From contig NZ_BMCM01000003.1 in the NCBI RefSeq assembly GCF_014635185.1, positions 1-64,000 of the forward strand: a stretch of 64,000 bases of DNA, read 5' to 3'. The position numbers were made by a program, and so were the translations under genes. Positions 14,435 through 44,374 of the stretch are shown piece by piece (position 1 is the first letter of the stretch; each line of letters opens with the position of its first letter). This stretch comes from Microbacterium murale. GTDB taxonomy: Bacteria > Actinomycetota > Actinomycetes > Actinomycetales > Microbacteriaceae. Below the pieces are notes generated by a model, which saw only the letters and a list, made by a program, of their open reading frames with translations, was not told the DNA's origin and made no database searches.

Positions 14435-14436
14435 TC

Positions 14437-14484
14437 GACGCCCGGTCTCGCATTTCTCATGACGCCCGGTCTCGCATCTCTCAT
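14437..14484. repeat. 24-bp tandem direct repeat, two copies
   Basis: The unit GACGCCCGGTCTCGCATTTC plus TCAT is repeated immediately with one base change. It starts two bases after a gene stop. Tandem copies of this kind can be insertion-sequence end remnants or the product of slippage. Confidence 0.8.
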
Positions 14485-14554
14485 GCTGTGCCGGAGCTGG
14501 TCTGGGCGCTGAATCTGTGCTCGTTGCCGAGGCTGCCTGATAGGCGGTCGGCGG

Positions 14555-14737: not shown

Positions 14738-14845
14738 GCGGACAGCATATGCCGGTAGTCGATGGCGTGATAAAACAGAGTATGAGCGCCTTCGTGAGGC
14801 AAATTGGGACGCCGCCTCGACGGAGCCTGAGGATAGAGCAAAGCA

Positions 14846-15217: not shown

Positions 15218-15464
15218 GTGCTGACAGCGGCGTCTCGAGAACCTGGGCCAGTGCAAGAAGCGTGCGTAGCGTTGGGTTGGCGGGATTGCCTGGGCGAGAC
15301 TCGCCCTTCTCATACTTTTGATATGTGTATCGGGTCAGTCCGGAACGATACGCGACGTCCTCCTGGCTCAGGCCGGCGCGATCGCGAGCCGAACGGAGCG
15401 AGATAGCGAAACGCTGCGAGTACGCCTTCCATTGCGCCTCGATATCGTCGTTTCGTTGGGCCAC
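15180..15464 (-). CDS. XRE-family helix-turn-helix regulator
   Basis: The 94-residue protein has a Cro/CI-type HTH: LRSARDRAGLSQEDVAYRSGLTRYTYQKYEKGESRPGNPTLRTLLALAQVL. It is a stand-alone DNA-binding protein without an effector domain. It faces the 14846 gene tail to tail. Targets unknown. Confidence 0.82.
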   Translation of the reverse strand: MAQRNDDIEAQWKAYSQRFAISLRSARDRAGLSQEDVAYRSGLTRYTYQKYEKGESRPGNPANPTLRTLLALAQVLETPLSALIPSDVPDLRSR

Positions 15465-16733: not shown

Positions 16734-17129
16734 CTAAGCGCGGGGCTTCAGCGGAATCACCTTCGAGGCCTGCTGGGCGTGTGCGATGAGAACACCGTTC
16801 TCGAGAGTTAGTCGTTGCACTTCCGCCGCAGCACGCTTGAGCTCGCTCTCTAATCGCGCATTGTCCCTGCGCAACCGGGCCAGTATCGTGCGGTGGTCGG
16901 CGTCGTTCGTCTCCTGGTCGGCAGCGGGAGGAGTACGGAGAGCCCGTCGACGGGTATCTGCGATCCCCTGGCAGAGGTCGGGGAAGTAGCGCCAGAACGT
17001 CGCGTTGCTTAGGCCGAGGTGCTCGGCGACCGCAACAACGGTCGGTGGCTTGGCAGGCTGTTCTCGTCGGAGCGCCTCCAGGGCCTCGCCAATCTGAAGT
17101 TCCGTCGGAAGAACGACGCGGCGGCTCAT
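16734..17129 (-). CDS. TnpC-like recombinase helper (DUF6262-type)
   Basis: The 131-residue protein has an N-terminal helix-turn-helix (TVVAVAEHLGLSNATFWRYFPDLCQGI) and a C-terminal coiled coil (ARLRRDNARLESELKRAAAEVQRLTLEN). This is the plan of the small TnpC-like proteins that end Tn554-type recombinase operons. It overlaps the 702-residue recombinase by ATGA. It probably helps orient or position the recombinases on the element ends. Confidence 0.8.
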   Translation of the reverse strand: MSRRVVLPTELQIGEALEALRREQPAKPPTVVAVAEHLGLSNATFWRYFPDLCQGIADTRRRALRTPPAADQETNDADHRTILARLRRDNARLESELKRAAAEVQRLTLENGVLIAHAQQASKVIPLKPRA

Positions 17130-21030: not shown

Positions 21031-22529
21031 CGGTTTCCTGCTTCGTCGCGAGGAAAGTGGGGTGACTCCCAGTCGTCCGGAATCAATGCGAGTCGAGTTT
21101 CCATTTCCAGCTCCTCTAGCGCATGGAGATAGACCTGTGTAGTCGTGACGCTGCGATGTCCCAATGCTCGTCTCACCCAGTCCAACGGGTCGCCGAAGGC
21201 ACGCACGTACTGTCCACGCTGTTGAGGAGTCTGGCCTCCCAACGCAGCGATATGACCACGCTGCAACTGTTCCAGCGTGAGTACCGCGAAAGTGTGCCTA
21301 AGCAGGTGAGCGTGCGCAGTCAATTGCACGCCGTGAGTCGTGCAACGCTGATTCGCGACTCTGAACATGTCCTGCCACGTCGATACAGCCATCGGGTCAC
21401 CGCGTTCGGTCAGCCACAAAGCCGCTGGTTCGTAGCCTTCCTCACTCTCGACGAACAGACCACGACGTTCCTCGGGACTGAAGTGCGTGATCGGCGTTCG
21501 AAATCGCATGCCGTCTTTGGACGTCGTCGTCACGAATCGTGAGTTCACATCGAGGAGACCAGTGCCTGCCTTTGAATACTGTCCGCGCGCTCGTGCTGCT
21601 TGCACCACGAGTCGACGGTCGACGGTCTGATACGACTCAATCTCACGCAGGACTCTTTTCGGTACATATACCCAACGTGCGGAGCCTCCCTTGGCGACAG
21701 CTTCCGCTAGCCAAAATCGGGGATACGTATAGCTGGCTGCGGTCGGCACTTCCATCGTGAGCATGGATGCTTGTTCGGATAGCCGCAGTCCTGTCCGCAC
21801 TAGGAGATCCGTAAACGTTGCGTTCCTCGTTGCCCAACGCCCTCGGAAGTTCGCATCCGGTAGTCCCTCCGCTGTATAACCGCGGAGTCCCACATCTCTC
21901 CATCTGCGGTATGCCGGTGCGGGGAGCCAGCGGATTCGATCACGGCGCGCATCATGCGAGTATGTCGCGGCGGTATGTCCTGTTTGGTGACGATTGTGTG
22001 CGCCAGGGCGTGCGCGCTGTGCACGCTGAGGAACGGGATTCTGCGCGACTCGCCCTCGAGATAGTTGCCAACGATAGAAGCGATTCTGAGCGCTCACTTC
22101 ACGATCCCACGTCGCACCACTGACCCGTGGGCCGTCAGGATCCTGCCGCCGCCAGATTAGGTAAGCACGATGATCTTCCTCGGTCGCGTTCTCCCACCCG
22201 ATGCCGCTGCGCGCACGATGTAGGAAGTTCAGGAAGAGCATCATGTCTCTCGCGTACCCCACGCGAGTGTTGATGCTTGTGGGCAACATGTCCGCAGAGT
22301 AGAAAAACTCGTTCAGCTCCGCGTCATAAGAGAAATCAGGCGAGATAAGGAAGGGGCTCCCGAGCGGAATACCAAATCGCTCCCACCACCTGTCGCTAGA
22401 TGTCTCGCCTTGCATGAGGTTCTCAGCCTTCACGCGAAAGAACTGCCAACGATGCGCTTGCACTGAGCCCGGTTCATTCGCGATCGTCACCTTATCGACG
22501 CTACGCGAGCCGAAGCCAAAACTGAACAC
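21027..22529 (-). CDS. Tyrosine recombinase, first of the trio
   Basis: The 500-residue protein carries a complete phage-integrase-type core: Arg in LLVRTGLRLSEQASML, HLLRHTFAVLTLEQLQ (HxxR-type box), LGHRSVTTTQVYLHALE with the conserved His and the nucleophile Tyr. The N-terminal SAM-like DNA-binding domain spans about residues 50-160. It is the first gene of the recombinase operon and starts about 28 bases from the comM junction, as expected for a gene that acts on the nearby element end. Confidence 0.9.
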   Translation of the reverse strand: MFSFGFGSRSVDKVTIANEPGSVQAHRWQFFRVKAENLMQGETSSDRWWERFGIPLGSPFLISPDFSYDAELNEFFYSADMLPTSINTRVGYARDMMLFLNFLHRARSGIGWENATEEDHRAYLIWRRQDPDGPRVSGATWDREVSAQNRFYRWQLSRGRVAQNPVPQRAQRARPGAHNRHQTGHTAATYSHDARRDRIRWLPAPAYRRWRDVGLRGYTAEGLPDANFRGRWATRNATFTDLLVRTGLRLSEQASMLTMEVPTAASYTYPRFWLAEAVAKGGSARWVYVPKRVLREIESYQTVDRRLVVQAARARGQYSKAGTGLLDVNSRFVTTTSKDGMRFRTPITHFSPEERRGLFVESEEGYEPAALWLTERGDPMAVSTWQDMFRVANQRCTTHGVQLTAHAHLLRHTFAVLTLEQLQRGHIAALGGQTPQQRGQYVRAFGDPLDWVRRALGHRSVTTTQVYLHALEELEMETRLALIPDDWESPHFPRDEAGNR

Positions 22530-22566: not shown

Positions 22567-23048
22567 ACCCGTGCCCGTGCGGAAACTACGGCGTGCGCGG
22601 CGCGGAGTGCATCTGCCCGCCGATCGCGATCCGTCGATACTCGGCGCGGCTGTCTGGACCGCTGCGGGATCGCATCGACATCGATCTTCAGGTCGCACGC
22701 GTCGCGGCCTCGCGTGCGACAGCACCAGAGCGTTCGGGTACGACCACGGTTGAGGCACGAGGCCGGGTGCAGGAGGCGAGACGGCGGGCGGGCTTGCGAT
22801 GGGCGCCGACGCCGTGGAGCGTGAACGCCGAGGTCGCCGGTTCGCATCTGCGGCAAGGCGCTCTGCGGTTGCCGACAGGCGTGCGCGCACCGCTCGATCG
22901 TGCGCTCGAACGCGGGCTGCTCACGCTCCGCGGCTACGACCGCGTACTTCGCCTCGCATGGACCATGGCGGATCTCGCCGGAGTGGACAGCCCCGGACAC
23001 GACGAACTCGGGCGAGCGCTCTTTCTGAAGAAGGGACTGATCTCATGA
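22557..23048 (+). pseudogene. comM: comM 3' fragment (Mg-chelatase-like ATPase), truncated by insertion
   Basis: The frame encodes the C-terminal part of a YifB/ComM family protein: NPCPCG, then C-I-C, then IRRYSARLSGPLRDRIDIDL, and the C-terminal helical domain ending LALAWTMADLAG-like LRLAWTMADLAGVDSPGHDEL. The Walker A and B regions are missing because the 5' two thirds lie beyond the integrated element. ComM is a helicase promoting branch migration during natural transformation. The stop overlaps the dprA ATG. The recombinase operon lies immediately upstream. Confidence 0.85.
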
Positions 23049-23850
23049 TGGATGCTCTGCTCGGAGACACCGAGATCTGCGCTGCGGCACGCAGCGCCCG
23101 ACCGGAGAGTGCGGCGGCCGAGACGCTGGCACGTGTCGGATGGGGCGTGATCGCCGAGCCGGGCGACGGCGTGGCAGGAGCCCTGATCGCACAGCTCGGC
23201 GCCGAGGAGGCGATGCGTGTCGCGTTGGACGATTCCCGCTTCACCCTGTCGGACCGTGTCATCGGTGAAGCTCAGCGGCGGTGGCGACCACGTGCCCGAC
23301 CTCGCTCCGTCGTGGAATCGCTCCAGGGCGCACGAGAGGTGGGAGCGCGACTGCTGCTGCCGGGTGACGCGGAATGGCCGGAGTCGCTTGATGACCTCGG
23401 GGACCATGCGCCGGTGCTTCTTTGGGTCCGAGGCGATGCGAGTCGACTGACCATGCCCGAGCGCGTGTCGATCGTCGGAGCACGGGCCGCGACCGGCTAC
23501 GGCGAGTCCGTCGCCGCCGAGTTCGCCGGTGATCTGGCGGCGTCAGGCACGCTCGTCGTCTCCGGTGGTGCGTACGGGATCGACGGAGCCGCCCATCGAG
23601 CAGCGCTCGGAGTCGGGGGCGGCACCGTCGCGTTCCTCGCCGGCGGCGTCGACCGCGCGTATCCGGCCGGACATCAGCAGCTGTTCGAACGCATCCAGAC
23701 ATCTGGTGCCATGGTCAGCGAACTCCCGTGCGGTGCGGCTCCGACGAAGTGGCGGTTCCTTGCGCGCAATCGACTCATCGCCGCTCTCGGGATGGCGACA
23801 GTGGTGGTGGAGGCCGGCTGGCGCAGCGGATCGTTGAACACCGCCGGGCA
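23045..23850 (+). pseudogene. dprA: dprA 5' fragment, truncated at about codon 268
   Basis: The frame matches DprA from its N-terminal helical domain through the Rossmann core: VSIVGARAATGYGESVAAEF, VVSGGAYGIDGAAHRAAL, FLAGGVDRAYPAGHQQLF, MVSELPCGAAPTKWRFLARNRLIAAL and VVVEAGWRSGSLNTAG. Immediately after NTAG, where DprA should continue with a short loop and GxVPGP, the sequence becomes unrelated (QTVGLPLHYHWHSQ). The frame stays open to 24070, so a chimeric protein could be made. DprA loads RecA on incoming DNA. Confidence 0.88.
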
Positions 23851-24213
23851 AACAGTCGGGTTACCGCTGCACTACCATTGGCATAGTCAGGATGTGGTCA
23901 CCGCGCAGTCTGTGTGGTCCTCTGATCCTCGCCCGCTTCGCGGTCTCAGATCCGGCCAGCGGGGCCGCAGATCGATGGACCCATTAGAGGGACCAGTCTG
24001 CGTCGTGGCTCTAGCAGGGTCAAGACAGATCGTCTACGCCAATTCCCCAGGACAGGGATCGGTGCTGTGACCAAAGCTGCGTTCACCTTCGTCGCTGATG
24101 CCCCGGCTGCCCCTCCTGCCCAGCGGCCCGCTTGAGTTTGAGTAGACATCGGCCGCCATTCACCAGGCTCGGATTACTGTCAGCGTGACCCGCAGTCGCT
24201 CTAGGGTATGCGA
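23851..24213. other. Junction region after broken dprA, no gene
   Basis: About 360 bases of lower-quality coding potential follow the dprA break. The chimeric dprA frame runs to 24070. No inverted repeat end, tRNA or recombinase gene was found that would name the inserted element. Confidence 0.5.
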
Positions 24214-24558: not shown

Positions 24559-24862
24559 TGCTTCATCCTCAACGTGCGCGCTCGAAGCTTCTTGGTGTAG
24601 CGATGTCGCGGTGGAGGCGACGGGTGCGGGGGAGAGGGCCACGGTCGTCGTGTTAGCGGCGGACGCGGAGATCGTGCGCCCAGCACCCGGTGTGTTCAGG
24701 GTTGCGGCTGATCTCTGCACCGTCTCGGTGCGTGCGATGACAAATCAATGACTGTGACTGAAACCCGCCTGTTTCTTTATCTTTCCAAGCGAAGGTGCGG
24801 GACGTATCCCATGCTTCCCAGCCCACGCGCCTCGCCGGCGACCGCCATGGCTCGAGTGCGGG
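24559..24862. other. Intergenic, no supportable gene
   Basis: About 300 bases with only shadow-like frames between a plus-strand unknown gene and the convergent membrane protein gene. Nothing recognisable was seen. Confidence 0.5.
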
Positions 24863-25279
24863 TCAGCGCGCAACCGTAGTCCAGGCGGCTGCCACGCTGG
24901 CGTCGATCGCTAGAAGCACCGCTCCGGCTGACGCGCTAACCAGCAGCACCCACTGGCGTCTGCGCTCGCTGGCAGGCAGCAGCGGCGCAGACATAGCAAC
25001 GTTGATGTCCATGTCGCCATACGTGGGGCGAGGGTGCTCGATGCCGTTCCAGGTCAGCAGTCGACGCTCGAACTCATTCGGCACGATACTCACCTCGTCG
25101 AAGCCGATCTCTCGCGCCTTCGCACGCTCCATCTGCCTTTCGTGCTCAGCCCAGATCCGTGGCGCTATCCGCTCTCGCACTCTCCGCTCGTGCGCGAGGC
25201 GCGCCTGCTCGGTTAAGAACGTGCCGGCAGCGTACAGGGAGCCGACGATCGGGATCAACGCAGCGAAGAAGGCAATCAT
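24863..25279 (-). CDS. Membrane protein with central coiled region
   Basis: The 138-residue protein has an N-terminal hydrophobic helix (MIAFFAALIPIVGSLYAAGTFL), a long charged helix (residues about 24-60, rich in Arg, Glu and Ala) and a C-terminal hydrophobic segment (WVLLVSASAGAVLLAIDASV). Such hairpins with a cytoplasmic or external coil are seen in many island-borne unknown proteins. It is divergent from the 25464-27136 pair. Confidence 0.6.
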   Translation of the reverse strand: MIAFFAALIPIVGSLYAAGTFLTEQARLAHERRVRERIAPRIWAEHERQMERAKAREIGFDEVSIVPNEFERRLLTWNGIEHPRPTYGDMDINVAMSAPLLPASERRRQWVLLVSASAGAVLLAIDASVAAAWTTVAR

Positions 25280-25463
25280 CTCTGCAGGCTACGCCGTTCC
25301 CCCGCCACCGCCCGCCTCGCGGGGGAGGGGCACCAGCACCCGCCCGGTGCCCTCACCGATGCTTACTCCCGACCGCGCTCCTGTCCGCTCGCCTCCGGTC
25401 TCAGGGAGACCGCCATCGCGCGCACGTCGCGTCCTGTACGCCGTGGCACATATGATGTCGATC

Positions 25464-26612
25464 ATGACCGATGACGCACCCGAACCAAGGCGAATTCGTC
25501 TGAACGGGGAGCGATTCGATGGCGGCCGCCTCCCAATTGACTCGCTGCCGGAGATATCGAAGTACCAAGAGGTTGTCCGCCTCATCGCGCGAGCGGAGTG
25601 GGAAGAGGATCATCCGGGTGAGCAGGTACCACCGGACTTCGACGAGAGCCTTCGTCTAGCAATCTCAGATTTGAGAGACGGAAGTGCGGATGTGTTCGTG
25701 GTGTTCGAACAGCATGCGCAGTATCAGACGTACCAGGCCGAAGCCGACGAGATGGCTAACGAAACCATTGCTGCCGCGTACTCTGGCGAAGCACTTCCAC
25801 CGTTGCCCGCGAGCGTCGAGTACGACGCCCGCGATCTAATCGCGCAAATCGGCGGAACGCTTTCCTCTGAGTCTGACTCAATTGAGTTCTACGTAAATGG
25901 GGTGAATGCTGCTCCAGTACGGATCGACGTCGTCACGCGGCTTGAAGCGCGGGATATTCTCCTAACGCAGGACTTTTTGGTCGACTCTCAGCCGGTGAGC
26001 ACAGCTCCGAAGGACGATAAGCGCGCGGATGCCATCGTCGGACGGATCACCGTAATCGACGCGGAGAAAATGACGTTCATCTTGCGCACGCCCGATGGGA
26101 AGGATCTGAAGGCGCGATACGTCGGTAACCCGGTAGTGCTTGAAGACATTCGAGCGCTTGTCCATCCGGAAGCAGAGGGTCCGGTTACGCGAGTCTCTGG
26201 GTTGCTCCACAGCAAGGCCGGTGAACCGTGGCGGTTCTGGACGACGGATAAGGTCGAGCAGTTAACCTTTGAAGGTCCTTGGGCGCCTCTTCTCACGGAA
26301 CTCGCAAGCCTTCGAACGGATTGGTCGGACGAAGGCGCCAGTTATCCAATCGGCTTCGACGTGTTGGACGCAACGCAAACGTTGCTCTCGGCGGTCGATT
26401 TAGCATCAGACTCGAATCCGGCCGTTTTTCCTTCCATTCCCGGAGGAGTCCTCGTTGAGTGGGTGGGGGATCGCGGCGTCCGGTCAATCGAGATAACCGC
26501 GGATCTGAAGTTCGAGCTTTTCTCCATTGACCGAGGGCAGAGAGAAGGCGACTTCACGGAAACGAGTTCGATCACGGACGTACTCACGTTCGTGCGGGAG
26601 GTGTCAGCATGA
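25464..26612 (+). CDS. Unknown protein, first gene of a coupled pair
   Basis: The 382-residue soluble protein starts MTDDAPEPRRIRLNGERFDGGRLPID. A -10-like TATGAT at 25451-25456 is eight bases before the ATG at 25464, suggesting a near-leaderless transcript; in-frame codons further upstream have shadow composition. The middle (about residues 185-275) reads as a beta-rich domain: IVGRITVIDAEKMTFILRTPDGKDLKARYVGNP. No known motif was found. It overlaps the next gene by ATGA. The pair is embedded in a defence-rich region, so a toxin-antitoxin or defence role is possible but unproven. Confidence 0.75.
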   Translation: MTDDAPEPRRIRLNGERFDGGRLPIDSLPEISKYQEVVRLIARAEWEEDHPGEQVPPDFDESLRLAISDLRDGSADVFVVFEQHAQYQTYQAEADEMANETIAAAYSGEALPPLPASVEYDARDLIAQIGGTLSSESDSIEFYVNGVNAAPVRIDVVTRLEARDILLTQDFLVDSQPVSTAPKDDKRADAIVGRITVIDAEKMTFILRTPDGKDLKARYVGNPVVLEDIRALVHPEAEGPVTRVSGLLHSKAGEPWRFWTTDKVEQLTFEGPWAPLLTELASLRTDWSDEGASYPIGFDVLDATQTLLSAVDLASDSNPAVFPSIPGGVLVEWVGDRGVRSIEITADLKFELFSIDRGQREGDFTETSSITDVLTFVREVSA

Positions 26613-27136
26613 GTCTGCCGGAATCAAACGTGACGCTCGACGACGAGGAGACGGCCCTTCGGAACATCGACCTCGGCGAAGGCGAAGCGCTCGTCGAGGA
26701 CGCGTCCGAGCTGATCTTCCGACAGATCACCAAGCATTCGCTTTCGAAAGACGGACGCGTCGGCACCCATGCATTCGGCCAAGCCGATTCCGATCGTGGC
26801 AAGCCGTCATATTCCCGACGCTCGGTTGTATCGGCTCAGGAAGCTCGCGACTGGCATAACGCTAATGCGCGCACGCAGTCCCTCGCAGTTTGGGCTCTGG
26901 CGCTCGAGGAGGTGTTCGCGGAGCGGCTGTGGGCGATCGACGATTCGGCAGCTCCTGTCGAAGAAGGAAAGGTGCGCGCTCCCGGGCACTGCTACGTCGA
27001 CTATCGGCATTTGTCGCGCGGAGAAGTCAAGAGCATTCGCGCACGCCTGTACTTCGCTGCCGAGCGGCGCGGAGAGATTCCCACCACCTCCGAGGTCATC
27101 GGCGACGGTCTCATCGACTTGGCAGAGGTCGGTTAG
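26609..27136 (+). CDS. Unknown protein, second gene of a coupled pair
   Basis: The 175-residue protein contains the block LIFRQITKHSLSKDGRVGTHAFGQADSDRGKPSYSR, which resembles a widespread but unnamed family with an F-x-Q-x-H-P-x7-GR-x-S-x-x-AF-x-P pattern. Its C-terminal half has HCYVDYRHLSRGEVKSIRARL. The ATGA overlap with the upstream gene points to a fixed stoichiometric partnership. Function unknown. Confidence 0.75.
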   Translation: MSLPESNVTLDDEETALRNIDLGEGEALVEDASELIFRQITKHSLSKDGRVGTHAFGQADSDRGKPSYSRRSVVSAQEARDWHNANARTQSLAVWALALEEVFAERLWAIDDSAAPVEEGKVRAPGHCYVDYRHLSRGEVKSIRARLYFAAERRGEIPTTSEVIGDGLIDLAEVG

Positions 27137-31719: not shown

Positions 31720-34620
31720 ATGGACGAAGCCTCCCTCTACGGCCGGCAAGGCGATTTCGACGCCGTGACCGCCGCGCCCCCTGGATTCCTGTTGATCGTT
31801 GGAGACTCTGGCATCGGCAAGTCGAGCTTTCTGTCGAGCTTGAACGCATGGCCCAGCGACCCGCTGATTTCGAAGCCGATCGTCCTGAAGTCGGTACAGG
31901 GGTCTCTGCAGACCGCTCTCGCCGATGCGATCAGCGACTGCATGTCGCAATACCTCGAAGACGCGCATGACCCCCAGACTGCTTGGAGCGTGGTGAAGTC
32001 CATAGGCGAGAGGGTGACATCTGTCAGCGGCCGAGAGATACTCAACGCCGTTCTCGCCGGCACGCTCGCATACGCCGAATCGAAGCTGGGAAAAGAGGCC
32101 ATCGATGTTGGCAAGAAGGTGCTCGGCGACATCGCGAAAGGCGGTCTCCTCGGCTTCGACGATCGGCTCGCGAAGATCCGCGTCCCTGACCGCGGGACCG
32201 AACTCTGCGTCATATCGGAGGCCCTCAGCGAGATCGCGGAGCGTCCTGTCGTTCTCCGGCTCGATAACGCTGAACGTCTGTCGCCTGACGACCGAGGCCT
32301 GATGATCGAGCTTACGGACGCTGTCAGCGGCAAGGTGTGGATCATTGCCTGCGTCACCAGGAACAACGAACCCGGCGATGAGGTAATCCAACAAGTGTCG
32401 GTGAGGGGAACTCTGCCGCACGAACTGCCGCCGCTGACGACACCCGCTATCGAGCAGTGGCTCGCCGCTTCGGAGGTGCCGCCCGCTCGCTGGGAGACGA
32501 TCACCCGTATCTCCAGTGGCTACCCCCTCTTCATCGCCGATGCCATTCGTCTATCCGGCGCTGAAGGATCGCTCGACGACATTGCCACCCCGAACGGGTT
32601 CCAGGCGCTGATGAAGGCGTCGTGGAAGCGCATCCCGGAGACGATTCAAACGATGGTGGCGCGACTGGCCCCGTTCGCGGATCCGCCTTCGGATGACTTT
32701 CTCACCAGATATCTGCGGCTCACGCAGCTGGAGCTTGGAGTCTTGATCAACAAGCTGATCGAGTCTGGCATCTTCGTCCGGAGGTCGGATGGGGAGGCCT
32801 GGTTCCATGATCGACGTCGTGCGTTCATTTGGGAGCAAGTCCTCCTGCAGAAAGTGCGAAGCGGCGTCGCCACCGAGGCCCTCGAGGCCGTCGGTCTCTG
32901 GGTCGAAGATCGAAAGAGCATCGATCCATGGGTGCCACCGGCGGCAGCGCTACTCACCAGGGCGGCCGAAAAGTTGTCGGCAAGTGGTCCATCCACCAAT
33001 TTCCACACGCTGTCCGACGAGGCGGTCGCCCTCCTGTGGGGTCTGATCGAGGTGAACGAGCCGTTCTCAGCGTGGGCCCCAGGCGCTGAGATCGGAGAGG
33101 TCATCCGGCATGCTGAGGCGCGCTCGGGGCTCGCCCTCGACGCGTTGCCACTCATCAGGCACCTCGAAGAACTGATGCTGATCGAGACCCTCGAAGAACA
33201 GGGCGTGGGCATCGTTCGGAGCACGATCGGAGGGATCACCGATGCCGCAGCCCTTCTCGGAGAAATTCAGCTTCGGTTCCACAGCACTCCGAGGCCACGT
33301 TTCGCCACTGTGGCCTTCGGCGCTTTCGTCCGCCCTGTCTTGGGAAAGTTCGAAGATGCCATCCTGAATCTCGGGCGGTCAAGTCTCACCGATCATAAGC
33401 AGCAATCGAGCCAGTTGCTCCGAAGTGGGAAGATCATCGGCGGCAACAGCCAGCCTCTGACTCTTGGCGCGACCGTGAGTATCGACAATCAAGCGATCAG
33501 TTTCACGGCAAGGTTCTCGACATCCGAGGCAAGAACCGAAGCTGAGCGCACGATCAAGAACATCTCTGAGCTCACCCCTCGAGTGCAACTCGTACGGTTA
33601 ATTCCCCTGCCACAGCCCCGGCTACGGTACGCGCGATATCGACTCGGCTCCGAAATGCTCGGGGTTAGCCTGGAGCCCACCAAGAACCCCACGGATGAGG
33701 AGATCATCCGATTCTTCGACCAGCGGGCTCAGTACGCGAACGGGCTGGGCGCTGTCAGCTCCGGTGACGAGATCGAGGTGTTCGATCTGGCGTGCAGGCG
33801 GTACCTTCTGGCTTTTCACACACCCTCGGGCGCCTGGACACGCTCCCTCACAGGATTCGAGGTGCGGACAGACAACGCGCAAACGACACAGATTGTTTCG
33901 GAGGTAGCATCCACGCGTCGAGACCCCCTTTCCGAACTTCAGCTACGCGCGGCCGGCTATCTCTCCGGCGGGGAACGAATCACGAGAGCTCTGTTCCAGG
34001 GTGGGGTCGAACTCCAGCTTCCGCACCCGCTGGTGGCTGTGCTCGATGAGGTAGAGCGGTTGGGTAAGCAGTACAACACCGGCTTCCGGTCGCTGCTTTT
34101 CCCGCCTGATGCACCGATGCTCGAGCGCGAGATTCGAGTCGAAAGGCAACGAGTCTTCGAAGTCAGAGAAGCCCTGGTGGCTGCCGGAGCCCCTGATACA
34201 GCCGGGCCCCGCCCCTCGATTCTCGTCGCCTTCTGGGAGGACACCGAGTCGGGGTGGGCCAGTGACTTCGGCAACTGGTCAGCCTGCGTTTTCACAGTGA
34301 ATGACGGTCTCGGCGCAGTACTCGTCCGTCGAGTAGCCGAGTCCGCTATCGGAAACAACTGGTGGCCCAACTTCCCGATTCCTCAGGTGTTCGAAAACTA
34401 TGCCGGCGTGAAAGCCGACTCCGTGAGCCAGGGGGATGCAAGCTGGCTCATCGCGCAACTACTCGGCTATGCCGACCATGACGCGCGAATGATGGACCTC
34501 GACACCGACCTCGGTAGAGCTGTGCGCAACAGCGGCACCTACGTAATCATCGGTGAAAGCGATGAGGAGCGATCCATCATCGAGATCGAGCCCGGCATGA
34601 AGAGCCTTCCGGCGGTGTGA
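31720..34620 (+). CDS. STAND-type NTPase with large unknown C-terminal region
   Basis: The 966-residue protein has an early Walker A (LIVGDSGIGKSSFL, about residues 25-38) and a Walker B-like VVLRLDNAERL (about 177-187), then WSKI/winged-helix-like ARC helices including HDRRRAFIWEQVLLQ. This is the plan of AP-ATPases/STAND proteins. The last 500 residues are mixed alpha-beta with no repeats I can name (for example the block around RYRLGSEMLGVSLEPTKNP). There is no obvious nuclease or TIR domain at either end. A small RxxxxH protein follows 35 bases downstream. Confidence 0.75.
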   Translation: MDEASLYGRQGDFDAVTAAPPGFLLIVGDSGIGKSSFLSSLNAWPSDPLISKPIVLKSVQGSLQTALADAISDCMSQYLEDAHDPQTAWSVVKSIGERVTSVSGREILNAVLAGTLAYAESKLGKEAIDVGKKVLGDIAKGGLLGFDDRLAKIRVPDRGTELCVISEALSEIAERPVVLRLDNAERLSPDDRGLMIELTDAVSGKVWIIACVTRNNEPGDEVIQQVSVRGTLPHELPPLTTPAIEQWLAASEVPPARWETITRISSGYPLFIADAIRLSGAEGSLDDIATPNGFQALMKASWKRIPETIQTMVARLAPFADPPSDDFLTRYLRLTQLELGVLINKLIESGIFVRRSDGEAWFHDRRRAFIWEQVLLQKVRSGVATEALEAVGLWVEDRKSIDPWVPPAAALLTRAAEKLSASGPSTNFHTLSDEAVALLWGLIEVNEPFSAWAPGAEIGEVIRHAEARSGLALDALPLIRHLEELMLIETLEEQGVGIVRSTIGGITDAAALLGEIQLRFHSTPRPRFATVAFGAFVRPVLGKFEDAILNLGRSSLTDHKQQSSQLLRSGKIIGGNSQPLTLGATVSIDNQAISFTARFSTSEARTEAERTIKNISELTPRVQLVRLIPLPQPRLRYARYRLGSEMLGVSLEPTKNPTDEEIIRFFDQRAQYANGLGAVSSGDEIEVFDLACRRYLLAFHTPSGAWTRSLTGFEVRTDNAQTTQIVSEVASTRRDPLSELQLRAAGYLSGGERITRALFQGGVELQLPHPLVAVLDEVERLGKQYNTGFRSLLFPPDAPMLEREIRVERQRVFEVREALVAAGAPDTAGPRPSILVAFWEDTESGWASDFGNWSACVFTVNDGLGAVLVRRVAESAIGNNWWPNFPIPQVFENYAGVKADSVSQGDASWLIAQLLGYADHDARMMDLDTDLGRAVRNSGTYVIIGESDEERSIIEIEPGMKSLPAV

Positions 34621-34655
34621 CGGTGCTCAGACCCGAGACGATGAGACGCTGAAGC

Positions 34656-35261
34656 ATGAAACTCAGGCAGCTGCGGAAACTGCACGCATCGGACCAATGG
34701 ACATTCGTGCGAGGGAGAATTGCGGAGTCCTCTGTCGAGCTCGACGCGGCACTTCGCGGTCTGCATGCACAACTCAGAGGGCTCGATTCACGAGAGGCCA
34801 TGCTCTCGGCGTCGAAGAACTGGTCGATCGTTGCAGATCAGTGTCGAACGATGATGCCCTGCGCCCAGGTACCTGACCGGAGCGTTTACGTAGCCATCGG
34901 CAGCGCAATCGACAGCGCGGCCGCCGCATATGAGGAACGCAACAGGTACATGCACGACCTGCTCGCTGCAGATGTTGACGACGAGCTTGTTCCTGATCCT
35001 GATCGCATCCGCCAAGAAGGTGACTACTATCTCCTTGCCCTTGCCACGAAGTCAGGTCGCCCTGGAGTCACTCTCGTGACGCTTGATCGGGCCATCGACG
35101 TTGTGCTGAAGCTCACGACAGAGACCTGGCGACTTCGAGCTGCTCGTGGATACCTGGCAGGGCGCACCACTTGGAAATCGCTTCTTATGGGGGTCGTAGA
35201 AGGTGAGTGGGACGGTACCGCGAACTGGACGTACAGCGGGCCTGACGACCCGGACGACTAG
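34656..35261 (+). CDS. HEPN-like small protein downstream of STAND gene
   Basis: The 201-residue, mostly helical protein contains AAYEERNRYMHDLLA (about 90-104), with R95-x4-H100. RxxxxH within a helix is the catalytic signature of HEPN ribonucleases. It starts 35 bases after the STAND NTPase on the same strand, so it may be that protein's effector. The rest of the fold cannot be verified by eye; other helical proteins can carry the motif by chance. Confidence 0.65.
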   Translation: MKLRQLRKLHASDQWTFVRGRIAESSVELDAALRGLHAQLRGLDSREAMLSASKNWSIVADQCRTMMPCAQVPDRSVYVAIGSAIDSAAAAYEERNRYMHDLLAADVDDELVPDPDRIRQEGDYYLLALATKSGRPGVTLVTLDRAIDVVLKLTTETWRLRAARGYLAGRTTWKSLLMGVVEGEWDGTANWTYSGPDDPDD

Positions 35262-35515
35262 GGCGTGTCTGGCAGAGCATTGGCCTATGCGACGGCTGCG
35301 TTAAGAACGACGGTTGCGCCGTGGATCACGGCGAGTTGTGGTAGCGCGTCGCGAAGCGGCGCTGTTGCTTGATGCGGCAGTAGCGGCGCCCGCTCGCGTT
35401 GCGGTTCTTGTAGGCGGCGGTGTCCAGCACGACGGGCCGGTCGCCACGCGAGCCGCGCCGCTTCCGGTGCCCTTTCTGGCCACCGGGCTCCGGGATCACC
35501 GACTTACTTCGCAGC
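35262..35515 (-). pseudogene. IS5-family transposase C-terminal remnant
   Basis: Minus-strand frames read VIPEPGGQKGHRKRRGSRGDRPVV, AYKNRN, YCRIKQQRRFATRY and, after a frameshift, LAVIHGATVVLNAAVA then stop. This is the C-terminus of IS5-group transposases. The GGGCGTGTCTGGCAGAGC sequence at 35261-35278 resembles the IS terminal repeat. The N-terminal two thirds are absent. Confidence 0.75.
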
Positions 35516-36661
35516 CCCGATCCGAAGAAGCCCACGAGTTGGCTCCCCGGGCTTGTCTAGCCGCCACCCGGGGACCAGCTCGGTGAGCGGTTCAGGCTCG
35601 CTGATTAGGTGCAGCGGGCGGCACTGGTGAGGCTTCCAACCGTCATGAGCGGCGACGGCCAGCGGAAGTAGTCGTGAGAACCGCTTTGGCGGGATCGGCA
35701 CTGTTGGTGATCTGCCTTTCCCCTCGTGGTGAACCCAGTGCTCGTAGAGGGCGTAGACAAAGCTGAACGGGACAAAGTGCCAGACGAGGCGCGGAAAGTA
35801 GGACGCAGTGAACGCGAGGATTTGCGCGTCGGGCTCAATTGGACGTGGCTGGCGGGGTCGTTTCTTGATGGAGTTCGTCGTCGCAGCAACAGCGTTGATT
35901 CGTGCGCTCAAGTCCTCCAGCCTGGACTCGATCGATACGTGGAGGCGCGACTGCTCGATCTGAGTGCGAGAAAGTGCTTCGATGGTTGAGATAAGGCGGG
36001 TGTCCTCACCGCGTTCGGGGGTCGGATCGAGCGCAATAGGAGGCTGTTGCGGCGCTGAAGGTTCAGCGGCTATGCCGGGTTCGGTCTGTAGCAGGCGGAT
36101 GAAGACTGACTTTCCTCCGATTCGCAGATGACGAAACAGAACAACGTCGATCGAATAGTTGTGGTTGCGCACCATCGACTTGACCACAGTCAGTATTGGC
36201 GCGGGCAAAGATGTCGCGACGACGGTGAGAAGGGGTGACTGAGGGATCGTGGTCGGCAGTTGTGTGCCGAAGTAGGCCAGGAACGCCTTCTCGAGCGTTT
36301 CACCATCATGGTGCTTTGCATACGCGCGGACAAGGTCTCCCACGCTCATGCCTTCGGTTGCGGCGACATAGCGAGGGATCTGCGCCAGAAAGTATGTGGC
36401 AGTCTTCTCGCGCTTCAGCTCGATGACGTGGATTCGGCATTCAGCGTCCACGGCGAGGAGGTCGACCTTCCCTCCGCACTCCGTTGTCCACTGTCGTCCG
36501 ATGATCAGCAACTGCAATCCCAAGAATTCGGGCGTGCTCTCGATGGCGTCCTCCAGAAGGTCTTCGTACTCGAGGTTGGTCGGAGCGACGCTCACGAGAT
36601 TTTCTCCTTCCGCTAGCCAGACGAATCGGCTGTCCCTCGCTATGCGGGGCGTCATCGCCAC
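35504..36661 (-). CDS. NucS/DUF91-like nuclease
   Basis: The 385-residue protein has an N-terminal PD-(D/E)xK nuclease domain: LEYEDLLEDAIESTPEFLG (about 30-48), CGGKVDLLAVDAECRIHVIELKREK (D67, E81, K83), the pattern of NucS and DUF91-type endonucleases. The rest (residues 200-385) is unlike mismatch-repair NucS and includes IESRLEDLSARINAVAATT, a coiled segment. The very 3' end abuts the IS5 remnant, so the C-terminus may be altered. It overlaps the antitoxin-like gene by 10 bases. Confidence 0.75.
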   Translation of the reverse strand: MAMTPRIARDSRFVWLAEGENLVSVAPTNLEYEDLLEDAIESTPEFLGLQLLIIGRQWTTECGGKVDLLAVDAECRIHVIELKREKTATYFLAQIPRYVAATEGMSVGDLVRAYAKHHDGETLEKAFLAYFGTQLPTTIPQSPLLTVVATSLPAPILTVVKSMVRNHNYSIDVVLFRHLRIGGKSVFIRLLQTEPGIAAEPSAPQQPPIALDPTPERGEDTRLISTIEALSRTQIEQSRLHVSIESRLEDLSARINAVAATTNSIKKRPRQPRPIEPDAQILAFTASYFPRLVWHFVPFSFVYALYEHWVHHEGKGRSPTVPIPPKRFSRLLPLAVAAHDGWKPHQCRPLHLISEPEPLTELVPGWRLDKPGEPTRGLLRIGAAK

Positions 36662-38669: not shown

Positions 38670-41642
38670 TCAGTAATGCTTCAGGATGTACTTCCAGGCG
38701 GACTCCATGGGCTCGCCCGTGCGCGGCAGCGCGTACTTCTTGAACAGGGCGTTCAGCTCGCGCTTGACGGCCTTCATCGAGGACTCCTTCGTCGTCCACT
38801 GCGGGTGCACCGCGTGGCTTACCAGCTGGTCCACCTCCTTGGCGATCTGGCTCACCATCACCGTCATCCCGGCCGGCTTGTGCTCGTCGAAGATGCGGGT
38901 GAGCATCCCCACGTTCGGGTCCGGCAGGTCAGCGAGCACGCCCTCCTCGTCGGAGTCCTCCACGGTCTTCAGGTCGGTGGCGACGTTGAACAGCTTCACA
39001 AGCCAGGCAACCGAGTCGTCCGCGTCGGAGATCACTCTCTGCCGTAGCTGGTCCAGCCGTTCGGCGATCGAGCTGTAGGCGCCGACGTTCGCGCCACCGC
39101 CTTCGAGCTTCTTGCGGATCCGCGCTGTGAGGGAATCGACGATCTCCTGCGCGGACTTGCCCTCGTACTCGGTCGGCACGGCCGGCAGCTGACCGGAGTC
39201 GGTCATCTTCTTGATGGTCTCGGCATCGGCGATCACCACGGCGATGTTGCGGTCGTCGACCCGGACGTTGAGCATGTGCGCGTGCACGAGCTCGCGGGTC
39301 TTCGGTCCCAGCCGCTCCCAGAGGATGTCGTCCTCATCACCCTCGCTCGGGATCGCGGCGTACACCTGCGCGTACCAGCGGTAGTCGCTCTCCCAGTCCG
39401 AGAGCTGCTCGTCGGGGGCGATGGTTTCCCACAGGCCCTGGGCGTACAGGTATTCGGCGCGGTACTCGGCGCGGTCTTCGCTGTCTTGCGGGACCCGTTC
39501 CAGGGCCTGCTGCAGCGAGTCCATCGACCCGTCACGGGTGATCCCCACGAACCGACGCCGCATCTCCTTCAGCGCCGCGTCCAGGCTCTGCAGCAGCGTG
39601 TCGGCCTCGATCTGCCGTTGCGCGTGCTCCGGGTCGGTGGGTGCGATCGCGCGTGCGAAGGCGCCACCGAGTCCGACGTAGTCGACGATCGTGCCGTAGC
39701 GCTTGGTGAACCCCGTCCCCGGGTGCCTCCAGGGCCTGTTCGTGCGGGTGATGGTCTGGAAGAGCGTGTGCAGCTTCATCGGCTTGTCCAGATACAGCAC
39801 ACCCTCGATGGGCGCGTTGAAGCCGGTGCCGAGCTTGGCGGTCACCACCAGGAACTTCAGGTCGTCTTCGATGTCCCGGAATCTGTCCAGCAGCGCCTCC
39901 TCCTCGCCCTCGGAGAGCTTGTACGACTCGAACTCGGTCTTGCCTGTGGCGGAGATCACTACAGCTACTTGGGCCGCGCGGCCGGCCTTGGCGAGCTCTA
40001 CGCGCAGCGCCTGCTCATACAGGATGCACAGCTCCTGGTCGGCGACGACGACCTGCGCCTTCATCCCGTGGGGATCGATTGAGGCGTAGAAGTGCGCGAC
40101 GATGTCGGCCGCGACCTGCTGGATGCGCTCGGGGTTATGGAAGATCGCCCGGGCGTTGGCGACCCGGCGCGCGAAGGCGTCTTTCTGCTGGTCGCTGAGC
40201 TCTTCTTCTTCGGCGAGAGCATCGAACGCAACGTCGAGCTCTTCCTTGGCGACGTCGAACCTGACAGGCCTGGGGATCACCCTCATCGGCACGGTCGTGC
40301 CGTCGGCGATTGATCGATCCGAGTCGTAGGTGTCCAGCGCCCACCCCGGATCTCGCTCGTCACCGAACAGCTGATAGGTGTTCCGGTCCAGGTCCGCGAT
40401 CGGGGTGCCCGTGAAGCCGAACCGGTGCGCGTTCGGCAGGGCAGCCCGCATGTCGGAGCCGAGCGCCCCCTCCTGTGTGCGGTGCGCTTCGTCCACGAGG
40501 AGGATGACGTTCTCTCGCTCTGTGAGGACCCCGGCGCCGGCGAACTTGTGTACGGTCGCGGCGATGATGCCCCGCGCTCCATCTCGGAGGGCCTGCTGCA
40601 ACGCTGCGGTGCTCTGGGCCTTCACCGGCTCCGGCACGCCCGCGGAGGCGAACTGGGCGAAGGTCTGGGTGACCAGCTGTGTGCGGTCTGCCACGGCGAC
40701 GATGGTCGGGTTGCGCATCCGCGGGTCGAAGTAGAGTCGGGTTGCCACCCACGACATCGTGAGCGTCTTCCCCGACCCCTGCGTGTGATAGATCAGGCCC
40801 CGAGAACCTGCCGCGCTGGTCGCGCGGGCGACGATTTTCTCCACCGACTCGTACTGGAAATAGCGTGGCAGTAGCTTGATGGTCTGGCCTGAGCCGCCGT
40901 CCTGCCGGTCGTACATCGCGTAGTGCTCGATGAGGTTCAGGACCACGCGCGGTGCCAGGAGGCCGGTGACGCTCATCACGACCCGCTCCCAGCCCTCGAC
41001 CATCGCAGGCACGGAGCTCGAGCCCCATCGCTGCCAGTGATCGAGCGGGGTGCGCACACCGGCATAGCGGAAGTCCTTGCCCTCGGTGGCGAACGAGAGC
41101 ACGTTCGGGACGAAGAACTCCGGCTGGTGCTCCTCGTAGGAGGTGTAGATGTCCTTCGCGCCGTCCTTCCAGCTCTTCACCACCGACACCGGCGTCTTCG
41201 TCTCGCCGACAACCACGGGGATGCCGTTGATCCACAGCACCACATCGAACCGGGCACCGCGGTAGGTCACCTCGTCCGAGACCAGCAGCGTGTTCTTCTC
41301 CGGGTTCACGAAGTCCAGGAGCTGGAACGGCTCGTCATGGTTGGTGTCCGGCATGAGCACTGTACCGCCGCCGCGCAGCAGGTGCGTGAACTCCTCGTTC
41401 ACGACCATGAGCCCTTCGGACTCGGCCGACAGCGCCAGCTGGCGCACCTTCGCCAGCACGGCATCCGTGCGTCCGGCGAGCTCCGGGTTCAGCCGCGTTA
41501 TAGCGTCCCGCAGGTCGGACTCGATGAAGACCTGTTGCGTCGTCCGGGGAAGGTCCTTGCCTTCCACGTGCGTCCAGCCTGCATCCATCAGTAGATCGAT
41601 GAGCGCGGCCTGCACCGTGCTTTTCTCGGTGTAGCCAGTCAT
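38670..41642 (-). CDS. hsdR: Type I restriction endonuclease subunit R
   Basis: The 990-residue protein has the N-terminal nuclease domain with RFDVVLWINGIPVVVGETKTP (D and E-x-K active site). Then comes an SF2 helicase: HTQGSGKTLTMSWVA (motif I), LLVDEAHRTQEGAL (DEAH motif II), FGFTGTPI (motif III), and ITRTNRPW in the second lobe (motif VI-like). A helical C-terminal region binds the methylase core. It overlaps hsdS by ATGA. Length is normal for the family. Confidence 0.95.
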   Translation of the reverse strand: MTGYTEKSTVQAALIDLLMDAGWTHVEGKDLPRTTQQVFIESDLRDAITRLNPELAGRTDAVLAKVRQLALSAESEGLMVVNEEFTHLLRGGGTVLMPDTNHDEPFQLLDFVNPEKNTLLVSDEVTYRGARFDVVLWINGIPVVVGETKTPVSVVKSWKDGAKDIYTSYEEHQPEFFVPNVLSFATEGKDFRYAGVRTPLDHWQRWGSSSVPAMVEGWERVVMSVTGLLAPRVVLNLIEHYAMYDRQDGGSGQTIKLLPRYFQYESVEKIVARATSAAGSRGLIYHTQGSGKTLTMSWVATRLYFDPRMRNPTIVAVADRTQLVTQTFAQFASAGVPEPVKAQSTAALQQALRDGARGIIAATVHKFAGAGVLTERENVILLVDEAHRTQEGALGSDMRAALPNAHRFGFTGTPIADLDRNTYQLFGDERDPGWALDTYDSDRSIADGTTVPMRVIPRPVRFDVAKEELDVAFDALAEEEELSDQQKDAFARRVANARAIFHNPERIQQVAADIVAHFYASIDPHGMKAQVVVADQELCILYEQALRVELAKAGRAAQVAVVISATGKTEFESYKLSEGEEEALLDRFRDIEDDLKFLVVTAKLGTGFNAPIEGVLYLDKPMKLHTLFQTITRTNRPWRHPGTGFTKRYGTIVDYVGLGGAFARAIAPTDPEHAQRQIEADTLLQSLDAALKEMRRRFVGITRDGSMDSLQQALERVPQDSEDRAEYRAEYLYAQGLWETIAPDEQLSDWESDYRWYAQVYAAIPSEGDEDDILWERLGPKTRELVHAHMLNVRVDDRNIAVVIADAETIKKMTDSGQLPAVPTEYEGKSAQEIVDSLTARIRKKLEGGGANVGAYSSIAERLDQLRQRVISDADDSVAWLVKLFNVATDLKTVEDSDEEGVLADLPDPNVGMLTRIFDEHKPAGMTVMVSQIAKEVDQLVSHAVHPQWTTKESSMKAVKRELNALFKKYALPRTGEPMESAWKYILKHY

Positions 41643-42856
41643 GCTGCAGCCTCCTCGTCGAAGTTCAGGAACAGGTCATAGTTCGAGGGGATCTTGTGCT
41701 TGCCGGAAAGCAGCACAGTAAGCAGATTGCTACGTAGGGTGCGGAGGGCTTCGGCGTGGGCGCGGGCTGCGGCGCAAGCTGAGTCGAGATCCTCGTACAC
41801 CTCCACGCTTGAGGCACGCTGCGTGATGTCTTCAGGCCACGGAACCCTCAAATTGCGCAGCTTGCCGGCCGCAATATTGCCCAGCCCAGTCGACCCCGAG
41901 GCAGCCCTCGTCACCTGTGACTGGAAACCTGGCCGCCGCATCATCCAGTAGAGGTAGCTGCTGTCCTCAGGAATGAGTGGCTCCACGATGAACTGGAACG
42001 CCGATACCGCTGCCCCAAGGTAGTCGTCTGGCACGCGATACACGTTGCCGATCCTGTCGCGGTTCCCGTTCGTTCGGATCGCGACAACAGAAGACGCGGT
42101 GAGTCTGCCCACCTTGGGGCTGAGCCCAGTCACGTAGGCGGGGGCCCCGCTCACGATGCCACCGGGCCTCGTGTTCGCGATGGTCAGAACTGGTGACCCT
42201 GCATCCTCAGACGGCCGAACATCAGCCTTCACCCAAGACGCCCCGGACGAGATCGTCGCTACAGACCCGATCGACCGTGCATCCGATGAGGTGGCGACAT
42301 CGAGCACAGTATCGAGCAATCGGGCGGTATAGCGCGCCTCGTTATCCGCCGCATCGATCTCATCGTCGACGGCGGCGATCAGGTCCACGATCCGTCGCTG
42401 CTCAGGGAGGGGCGGGAGCTCTACCTCGATCTGGCTGAAGGACTTCCATGCGAGGCTGCGCCGTCGGTTGATTGATCCCTGGGAGTTGTCGGCATAGACC
42501 GCGAGCATCTCGCGTGAGCGGAGCAGCTGCTCGACATATCGCGGGTCGTCGAGCGAAGAAGTCCAATTCATGACGGTGTACATCGGGCTGACCACGCCGT
42601 CGACGTGAAGATTGTTGCGAGCGATTGAGCCCTCGTCGATGTGAATGGTCGAATAGACCCAGGCTTGATCTGGCAGCAGCTTGTATGTAGACAGGTCTGC
42701 CGATGCGACACGCTTTCCGAAGAAAGTCTCTGCCGGGATCACACCGTCGTACTTCGAGACGGAGAACACCGGTGGCTCAGCGTAGTGCGCACCCAGGCGT
42801 GCGTTGCTCGGTTCGAAGAGGTCTCCGAGCTCCGCCGTGCGCCACCCCTCACGCAT
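41639..42856 (-). CDS. hsdS: Type I restriction specificity subunit S
   Basis: The 405-residue protein has two target-recognition domains separated by conserved helices: SQIEVELPPLPEQRRIVDLIAAVDDEID (first conserved helix, about 140-167) and LRNLRVPWPEDITQRASSVEVYEDLDSACAAARAHAEALRTLRSNLLTVLLSG at the end. The duplicated helix pair is the hallmark of HsdS. It overlaps hsdR and hsdM by a few bases in an hsdM-hsdS-hsdR operon on the minus strand. Confidence 0.93.
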   Translation of the reverse strand: MREGWRTAELGDLFEPSNARLGAHYAEPPVFSVSKYDGVIPAETFFGKRVASADLSTYKLLPDQAWVYSTIHIDEGSIARNNLHVDGVVSPMYTVMNWTSSLDDPRYVEQLLRSREMLAVYADNSQGSINRRRSLAWKSFSQIEVELPPLPEQRRIVDLIAAVDDEIDAADNEARYTARLLDTVLDVATSSDARSIGSVATISSGASWVKADVRPSEDAGSPVLTIANTRPGGIVSGAPAYVTGLSPKVGRLTASSVVAIRTNGNRDRIGNVYRVPDDYLGAAVSAFQFIVEPLIPEDSSYLYWMMRRPGFQSQVTRAASGSTGLGNIAAGKLRNLRVPWPEDITQRASSVEVYEDLDSACAAARAHAEALRTLRSNLLTVLLSGKHKIPSNYDLFLNFDEEAAA

Positions 42857-43634
42857 CGAAGCCCGCCTCCTTCAGCCGCACATCCAACGCGGCACGCGCA
42901 ATATCCATCGCTGCCTGCGCGTCACGCAGCGCAGCCAGCGCCGCATCCACGTCCGCCTCGGCGCGAGTCTCGGTCTGGATATACCGACCGATGTTCAGGT
43001 CGTAGTCGAACGCGCGGATCTTCTCCCGGCGCACGAGCTGCAGCGCAAGGCCCCCGTCACCATCTATGTCCTCACCGCGCTTGTACGCCGCGTCAATGGC
43101 GTCGACGTCGTCGTCGCTGAGCGTGTTCTGGTTCTTGCCGGGCTTGTATCTGGAGCGTGCGTCGATGAACAGCACGTGCTTCTCTCGCTCGACGCTCTTC
43201 TGCGCGCGGAAGATCAGCAGGCACACCGGGATCGAGGTTGAGTAGAAGAGGTTGTTCGGAAGCCCGATCACCGCCTCGAGCTTGTCCTGCTCGATCACCC
43301 ACTGCCGCATCTCGGCCTCGCGGCCGCCGCGGAAGAGCACGCCGTGCGGCATCACGACGCCCACGCGTCCGGTGCCCTCCTTCATGGTCGAGAGCATGTG
43401 CTGGATCCACGCCCAATCACCGTTCTTCGCCGGCGGGACGATGCCGCCCAGGGCTCGCTTGTAGCGATCCTTCGCCCAGGTCGATGCCGGCCAGTTGTCC
43501 AGCGAGAACGGGGGGTTGGCGATCACGACATCGAACTTCCGCAGGCGTCCGGCGTCGTCCTTGAGCTTCGGGTCACGGAACGTGTCGCCCCGCTTGATCT
43601 CGAAGTCCTCCACGCCGTGCAGGTAGAGGTTCAT
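42849..43634 (-). CDS. hsdM: Type I methylase subunit M, C-terminal part (split)
   Basis: The 261-residue frame starts MNLYLHGVEDFEIKRGDTF and has the N6-adenine catalytic motif IV (VVIANPPFSLDNW) and the C-terminal helices that contact HsdS. In intact HsdM this follows directly on the frame at 43631-44374. A missing base near 43643-43644 ends the first frame, and the ATG here overlaps its TGA (ATGA), so translational re-initiation could make a two-chain enzyme. Confidence 0.88.
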   Translation of the reverse strand: MNLYLHGVEDFEIKRGDTFRDPKLKDDAGRLRKFDVVIANPPFSLDNWPASTWAKDRYKRALGGIVPPAKNGDWAWIQHMLSTMKEGTGRVGVVMPHGVLFRGGREAEMRQWVIEQDKLEAVIGLPNNLFYSTSIPVCLLIFRAQKSVEREKHVLFIDARSRYKPGKNQNTLSDDDVDAIDAAYKRGEDIDGDGGLALQLVRREKIRAFDYDLNIGRYIQTETRAEADVDAALAALRDAQAAMDIARAALDVRLKEAGFDA

Positions 43635-44374
43635 CCGCGCGATGCCGCGGTGGTGAGGTTCTGCTCCTGGCCGTACAGGAACAGCGACCTGGGGTTGCCG
43701 CCGGCGAGCTTCACGGCTTCGGTCGTCTCCACGAGCATGCCCGCAGAGCCGCAGGCGGGGTCACACACGGAGTCACCTGTCTGCGGGTCCAGGATCTTCA
43801 CGAGCAGGTGCACGACGTGCCGCGGGGTGAAGAACTCGCCGGCCTTCTTCCCGGATGCCTCAGCGAACTCGCGCAGCAGGTACTCGTATGCCGAGCCCAG
43901 CATGTCGCCGGAGATGTGGTTGGGATCCAGCGTCAGCTTGTCGAAGACCTGCATGAGCGCACGGAGCGCGGACTGGGGGATGCGCTCCTGGTTGGACCAG
44001 TTCACGTCCCCGAAGACCCCGGCGAGCTTGCCCGGGTTCGCCTCCTGGATGGCGACGAGGGCCTTGTTCAGTGCCTTGCCACTGTTCTTCGTGACCTCGA
44101 ACGTGTCGTCCCAGTGAGAGCCTTCGGGGATGACGAAGGCCTGGTAGTCCTCGTCCTCGAACTCCTGCGACCATTCGTCGCCCAGGTCGTCAAGCGCCTG
44201 CTCGTGGTGGAAGTCGTAGACGTCGCTGATCCACTTGTAGAAGAGCACCGGGAACACGTACGCCTTGAAGTCGCCTGGATCGACCGGGCCACGGAGTGCA
44301 TTCGCAGCTCCCCAGAGAGCCCGCTCGAGCTCTCGCTGCGTGAGGTGGTCAGGGTTCGCAGGCGCGAGTGTCAT
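43631..44374 (-). CDS. hsdM: Type I methylase subunit M, N-terminal part (split)
   Basis: The 247-residue frame has the HsdM N-terminal domain (QRELERALWGAANALRGPVD, YVFPVLFYKWISDVYDF) and the SAM-binding motif I DPACGSAGMLVETTEA. It then reads SLFLYGQEQNLTTAASRG-stop, where the family has QEQNLTTAAIARMNLYLHG. A single-base deletion at about 43643-43644 explains the change. Together the two frames have normal HsdM length. Confidence 0.88.
   Translation of the reverse strand: MTLAPANPDHLTQRELERALWGAANALRGPVDPGDFKAYVFPVLFYKWISDVYDFHHEQALDDLGDEWSQEFEDEDYQAFVIPEGSHWDDTFEVTKNSGKALNKALVAIQEANPGKLAGVFGDVNWSNQERIPQSALRALMQVFDKLTLDPNHISGDMLGSAYEYLLREFAEASGKKAGEFFTPRHVVHLLVKILDPQTGDSVCDPACGSAGMLVETTEAVKLAGGNPRSLFLYGQEQNLTTAASRG

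Follow-up and report, generated by a model that had tools for sequence, protein, structure and literature searches.

Adjacent STAND-type NTPase and HEPN-like genes in a Microbacterium defence island: probably two independent modules

The locus

Two neighbouring genes of Microbacterium murale (assembly GCF_014635185.1; 18 contigs, 3.9 Mb) are considered here, which lie within positions 1 to 64,000 of contig NZ_BMCM01000003.1, a stretch of 64,000 nucleotides referred to below as the window. The first gene encodes a STAND-type NTPase of 966 residues and the second a HEPN-like protein of 201 residues; both are located on the plus strand and are separated by an intergenic gap of 35 bases (34621-34655). 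A preliminary description, made from the sequence alone, had given the positions, lengths and spacing of both open reading frames (ORFs) correctly and had proposed that the two genes form a new two-gene defence system, conservation of the pair being set as a test. In this study, the genes were followed through their relatives, the pair was found in none of those examined, and the locus was probably formed by two independent solo modules of defence type. The features of the locus are listed in Table 1.

Table 1 Features of the NTPase/HEPN-like locus and of its surroundings in the window
Feature	Position	Strand	Basis or remark
STAND-type NTPase, 966 residues	31720..34620	+	ORF, profile match, alignment, model
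Walker A, GDSGIGKSS, residues 28-36	31801..31827	+	G28, D29, S30, G31, G33 and K34 invariant in 7 sequences
Walker B-like, VVLRLDNAE, residues 177-185	32248..32274	+	D182, followed by R186 and L187, invariant in 7 sequences
WFHDRRR, residues 361-367, end of winged helix	32800..32820	+	W361, F362, H363, R366 and R367 invariant in 7 sequences
HEPN-like protein, 201 residues, solo gene in relatives	34656..35261	+	ORF, alignment, model
HEPN-type Rx4H motif, R95-N96-R-Y-M-H100	34938..34955	+	R95, N96 and H100 invariant in 9/9
79 bases common to relatives of neither gene	34563..34641	+	last NTPase residues and most of the gap; blastn limits
Remnant resembling the end of elements of the IS5 family	35255..35505		begins at the final codons of the HEPN-like ORF
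Tyrosine recombinase	21027-22529	-	window protein scan
DprA-like gene	22799-24070		window protein scan
Candidate pair PDC-M32A and PDC-M32B, two adjacent genes	24795-27136	+	PADLOC
PDC-S73-type protein, 774 residues	27240-29564	-	Mrr-type nuclease, then nSTAND3; PADLOC match over the first half
PDC-S11-like protein	35504-36661	-	weak NucS_C; PADLOC match confined to the N-terminal half (profile 8-189 of 358)
Type I restriction system	38670-44374		window protein scan

The STAND-type NTPase

As had been described before, the first gene encodes a STAND-type NTPase. The protein matches the AAA_16 profile of Pfam just below the cut-off (3.4e-7, 31.3 bits versus 32.6; profile positions 16-158 of 167), and residues 1 to about 420 of its structural model match archaeal STAND-like ATPases, Apaf-1, MalT, and Avs3 in structure comparison. 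The Walker A and Walker B-like motifs are located where they had been reported, and their key residues are invariant in an alignment of seven sequences, i.e., the window protein and six relatives. In the model, the core extending to about residue 420 is composed of an NTPase domain, a helical domain, and a winged-helix domain; the histidine of the WFHDRRR motif may resemble the MHD-type histidine of STAND proteins.

The NTPase domain begins within about the first ten residues and an N-terminal effector domain is absent; in agreement with the preliminary description, no effector domain was recognised in Pfam, NCBIfam, PHROGs, or PADLOC, which also gave no family match for the C-terminal half. 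A PADLOC match to LmuB (E 0.0044) covers only residues 11-38 and was set aside as uninformative. As read from the predicted secondary structure of the model, residues 433-501 possibly form a second winged helix and residues 546-630 a possible beta-alpha-beta-beta-alpha-beta unit. In STAND proteins the C-terminal part serves as sensor and often consists of repeats that build a superstructure; in the window NTPase, residues 669-966 were modelled with a predicted local distance difference test score (pLDDT) below 50. Searches of PDB sequences with profiles of both the NTPase and the HEPN-like family yielded nothing useful, one of them giving mostly P-loop matches (best E 0.0076).

The HEPN-like protein

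The second protein carries the R95-x4-H100 signature that had been noted in it, and R95-N96-x3-H100 is invariant in all nine rows of an alignment whose members share down to 20% identity. An R-x4-H pattern alone means little: when 333 proteins were crudely called in the window and in 15 fetched loci, 50.5% had it and 11.7% had the narrower form R[NDH]x3H. The motif gains weight from its conservation across the alignment: R95, N96, and H100 are among only eight invariant columns, and when eight invariant residues were placed at random, a pair of R and H five positions apart arose in about 1% of 200,000 trials. In addition, position 30 is acidic in all nine rows (aspartate in eight, glutamate in one) and R34 is present in seven of the nine; judged by sequence, we read these residues as the putative second conserved acidic position of the HEPN superfamily, which is typically of the Ex3[KR] type.

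The model is mostly helical, as had been anticipated, with a single beta hairpin at residues 124-142. No family match was obtained in Pfam, NCBIfam, PADLOC, or PHROGs, and seven members of the family searched against Pfam gave no HEPN model at E<=1. Foldseek returned generic helical chains only (best E 0.34; none at E<=0.001). In profile comparisons by hhalign with three HepT-like proteins, the probability was 0.5% (E 0.13) and the two motifs were not aligned together; the best probability obtained with 60 column-shuffled control profiles was 0.6%. A weak fold match was found to HepS of the Gifsy-1 prophage, which we take to be the product of the Gifsy-1 gene predicted to encode a HEPN protein. 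Together, these comparisons gave no confirmation of the HEPN fold, which is all-alpha.

Distribution of the two genes

Six other full-length relatives of the NTPase were found; genomes are referred to by G numbers where they have to be distinguished. The closest relatives are those of G097 (57% identity) and G458 (55-56%), followed by G634 and Microbacterium sp. VKM Ac-2870 (G633) with 31-32%, and by a Rhodococcus qingshengii plasmid and a Dehalococcoidia metagenome-assembled genome with 19-25%. A HEPN-like gene was present in the fetched flanks of none of the six (best tblastn E 0.19), and searches of their whole genomes or records, for Rhodococcus of the plasmid record, gave no match to the HEPN-like protein at E<=0.001. 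Weak matches in G208 (E 0.0235) and in the whole genome of VKM Ac-2870 (E 0.122, away from the NTPase) were not counted. Likewise, the NTPase was absent from the fetched sequence of all ten other HEPN-like loci, nine in the genus and one in G148. At one of them (G044) the contig ends inside the HEPN-like gene, so that the downstream side alone is seen, and the G044 genome has no NTPase match; at another (G166) the sequence covers 1.4 kb downstream.

Among the 366 other genomes of the genus, three contain a full-length NTPase, nine a HEPN-like gene, and none both, the two surveys being taken as covering the same 367 genomes. Matches to the NTPase were obtained in 15 of the 367, four of full length (the own genome included) and 11 partial. 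The partial matches (E 3.7e-8 to 8.9e-4) and a further one in G208 were taken as other STAND-like proteins and not counted; none of the 11 genomes is among the nine with a HEPN-like gene. In a sample of 396 genomes of the phylum, the NTPase was detected at E<=1e-10 only in the genome of the window. In these NTPase surveys, two best candidates per genome at most were scored. A wider scan of genome contigs gave at least two loci, and absence there carries little weight. Plasmids searched with the HEPN-like protein, phages, and viral contigs yielded nothing useful; the plasmid search with P0003 returned the same Rhodococcus record, and one viral-contig search saw one relative, for which no locus was returned.

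No other constant partner was seen either. Downstream of the NTPase relatives, crude gene calls gave a convergent YaaC-like gene in G097 (14373-15371 of the locus), a convergent short ORF in G634, and an ORF of 205 residues without Pfam match in G458; in Rhodococcus, about 600 bases without annotated gene follow. Within 5 kb, the sole recurring neighbours of the NTPase were one set of mutually similar proteins in G458 and G097. For the HEPN-like loci, these were one gene and its shadow frames common to the window and G461 only, and a single match of 33 residues that G536 and G636 share on the downstream side of the gene.

The junction between the genes

Similarity in blastn to the NTPase locus of G458 stops at 34562, and similarity to the HEPN-like locus of G461 starts at 34642; the 79 bases in between possibly represent a recombination junction. 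The two close relatives lack the final residues of the window NTPase, their own C-termini falling no more than three residues from TYDI[LV]G. On the other side of the HEPN-like gene, the IS5-type remnant is present in one copy in this genome and matches nine plasmid records, three of the eight listed being annotated there as IS5 family transposase (best match 76.6% identity over 88% of the query); an ORF of 69 residues within it (35326-35535, minus strand) has no Pfam match. We infer that the adjacency of the two genes arose by recombination in a mobile region. G461 has no NTPase match; besides its HEPN-like gene, it contains relatives of two window genes, those at 30790 and 38199. A hotspot shared with G461 was considered and dropped, and only a shared, shuffled gene pool is claimed, because the relative orientations of the common genes differ.

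Genomic neighbourhood

For the window and the other loci, chosen neighbouring proteins were scanned; those of the window that are of defence or mobile type are listed in Table 1. An association with a defence island, which had been suggested as a check, was found: both genes are located among the PDC-M32A/B pair, the PDC-S73-type protein, the PDC-S11-like protein, and the type I restriction-modification system. In the PDC-S73-type protein, STAND and nuclease domains do occur in one chain. The PDC-S11-like protein may be truncated or altered, since the 3' end of its gene reaches the IS5-type remnant. In place of a single gene for HsdM (42849-44374, minus strand), there are two overlapping ORFs, at 43631-44374 and at 42849-43634, which match consecutive parts of the N6_Mtase profile; the split is either natural or due to a frameshift or to an error in sequencing. 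Positions 17126-22529 (minus strand) are occupied by three co-directional genes, the tyrosine recombinase being followed by two large genes without Pfam match, a layout which may resemble that of the recombinase trios of genomic islands.

Defence genes also occur at several loci of relatives. MzaC and MzaD matches lie about 2 kb from the NTPase relative of G634 (locus 11447-15396). The HEPN-like locus of G461 has Mrr and type IIG genes about 4 kb away; 33 bases in front of its HEPN-like gene, and in the same orientation, lies an ORF of 189 residues for which Pfam and PADLOC gave no match. In G222 (locus 5752-11884), the HEPN-like gene is flanked by a Schlafen AlbA_2 protein and a divergently encoded protein of 1136 residues with SIR2 and STAND matches, both below the cut-offs. 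For the HEPN-like gene of G697, a common operon with a QatA/PifA-like gene on the same strand was considered; the two lie about 660 bases apart, with an apparent divergent ORF in between as judged by eye from the raw sequence. A D5_N gene lies in the fetched flank of the G166 locus. The chosen neighbours in G536, G097, and G458 matched no defence family. A defence role of each of the two genes is plausible.

Comparison with described systems

HEPN proteins have been proposed to cleave RNA during infection and thereby to limit phage spread (excerpts of PMC3710099 and PMC12839542), and the superfamily signature is outlined in the former excerpt as Rx4-6H with a polar residue after the arginine. 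In line with stand-alone HEPN RNases (Anantharaman et al. 2013, excerpt of PMC3710099; HepS), the window protein shows Rx4H with asparagine after the arginine and an acidic residue upstream that is followed by arginine four positions later; it is mostly helical, has about 200 residues, is encoded by a solo gene, and at some loci lies near mobile or defence genes. In contrast to them, it could not be matched by sequence or profile to any HEPN family described so far, and its fold match to HepS is weak; a predicted HEPN protein is encoded by a Gifsy-1 gene according to the excerpt of PMC9879122. Unlike the STAND NTPases archaeal PABY2304/SSO1545, Apaf-1, MalT, PH0952, and Avs3, the window NTPase has no N-terminal effector, and no repeat region was recognised. 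The system outlined in the excerpt of PMC8195603, in which one STAND protein is accompanied by an inactive STAND module carrying a fused HEPN, combines the same two kinds of domain, whereas in the window they belong to separate genes that are not kept together. In the titles and abstract openings of the papers listed by the literature searches, no description of this NTPase/HEPN-like pair was found.

Interpretation

The arrangement invites the reading that an effector-less STAND NTPase senses infection and activates a HEPN RNase in trans: the genes follow each other on one strand with a gap of 35 bases, no effector domain was recognised in the NTPase, the second protein contains a conserved RNase-type motif, and both lie in a defence island. 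We nevertheless rejected this two-gene system, since the pair is not conserved in the relatives examined (0/6 NTPase and 0/10 HEPN-like relatives; the two genes never occur together in the 366 other genomes of the genus). The NTPases that share 55-57% identity with that of the window are of full length and solo, and the family therefore persists without a HEPN-like partner; a true two-gene system is improbable. Thus, of the preliminary description, the STAND NTPase, the HEPN-type signature, and the defence setting stand, and the assignment of the two genes to one system does not. A variant is given a slender chance: by recombination in the island, a solo HEPN-type RNase would have come under the promoter that drives a solo STAND NTPase, and in this lineage the NTPase would now activate or restrain the RNase in trans. 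Both genes may also be solo with the small protein not being a HEPN RNase at all, in which case it would form another helical bundle and R95, N96, and H100 would have a structural or different role. The lack of any family match, the generic chains returned by Foldseek, and the hhalign result, in which the motifs remained unaligned, speak for this possibility, which we consider rather unlikely and yet to be taken seriously. It is doubtful, finally, that the NTPase is a MalT-like regulator with a housekeeping or metabolic role and no defence gene, as it occurs sporadically (4/367 genomes of the genus, the own genome alone among the 396 of the phylum) and has defence-gene neighbours in the window and in G634.

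The explanation that we favour as the probable one is that two independent solo modules of defence type have come to lie head to tail by chance in one Microbacterium defence island. Several points weigh against it. The genes are probably co-transcribed here, since they are co-directional and 35 bases apart. Close NTPase relatives are few (two above 50% identity), so that pairing may be restricted to this species or to others outside the sample. A defence context is evident at part of the loci only: the scanned neighbours include an APH-type phosphotransferase in G536 and, next to the NTPase of G458, three genes of which none is a defence gene.

If the genes are independent modules, each would act by itself. 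By analogy with other STAND proteins, the nucleotide-bound core of the NTPase would be held off by the winged helix, the C-terminal half would read a phage or stress cue, and the protein would then assemble into an active multimer. The response would be executed by its own C-terminal half or by a partner encoded elsewhere, since no neighbour common to its relatives was found. The HEPN-like protein, by analogy with HEPN RNases, which act independently of metal ions, would probably cleave RNA at a site formed by R95, N96, H100, and acidic residue 30, and would be switched on during infection and limit phage spread.

Biological significance

The earlier observation was correct and the adjacency was over-read: 35 bases between two genes of a defence island are weak evidence for a system when relatives have been left unchecked. 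If the pair were freshly assembled after all, it would be a snapshot of the birth of modular defence systems. One candidate two-gene system is struck off, and two unannotated solo families take its place: an NTPase family with an uncharacterised C-terminal half, which is found almost in full length in genomes ranging from Microbacterium to a metagenome-assembled one of Dehalococcoidia, and an uncharacterised HEPN-like family, which is scattered singly through a few Microbacterium genomes.
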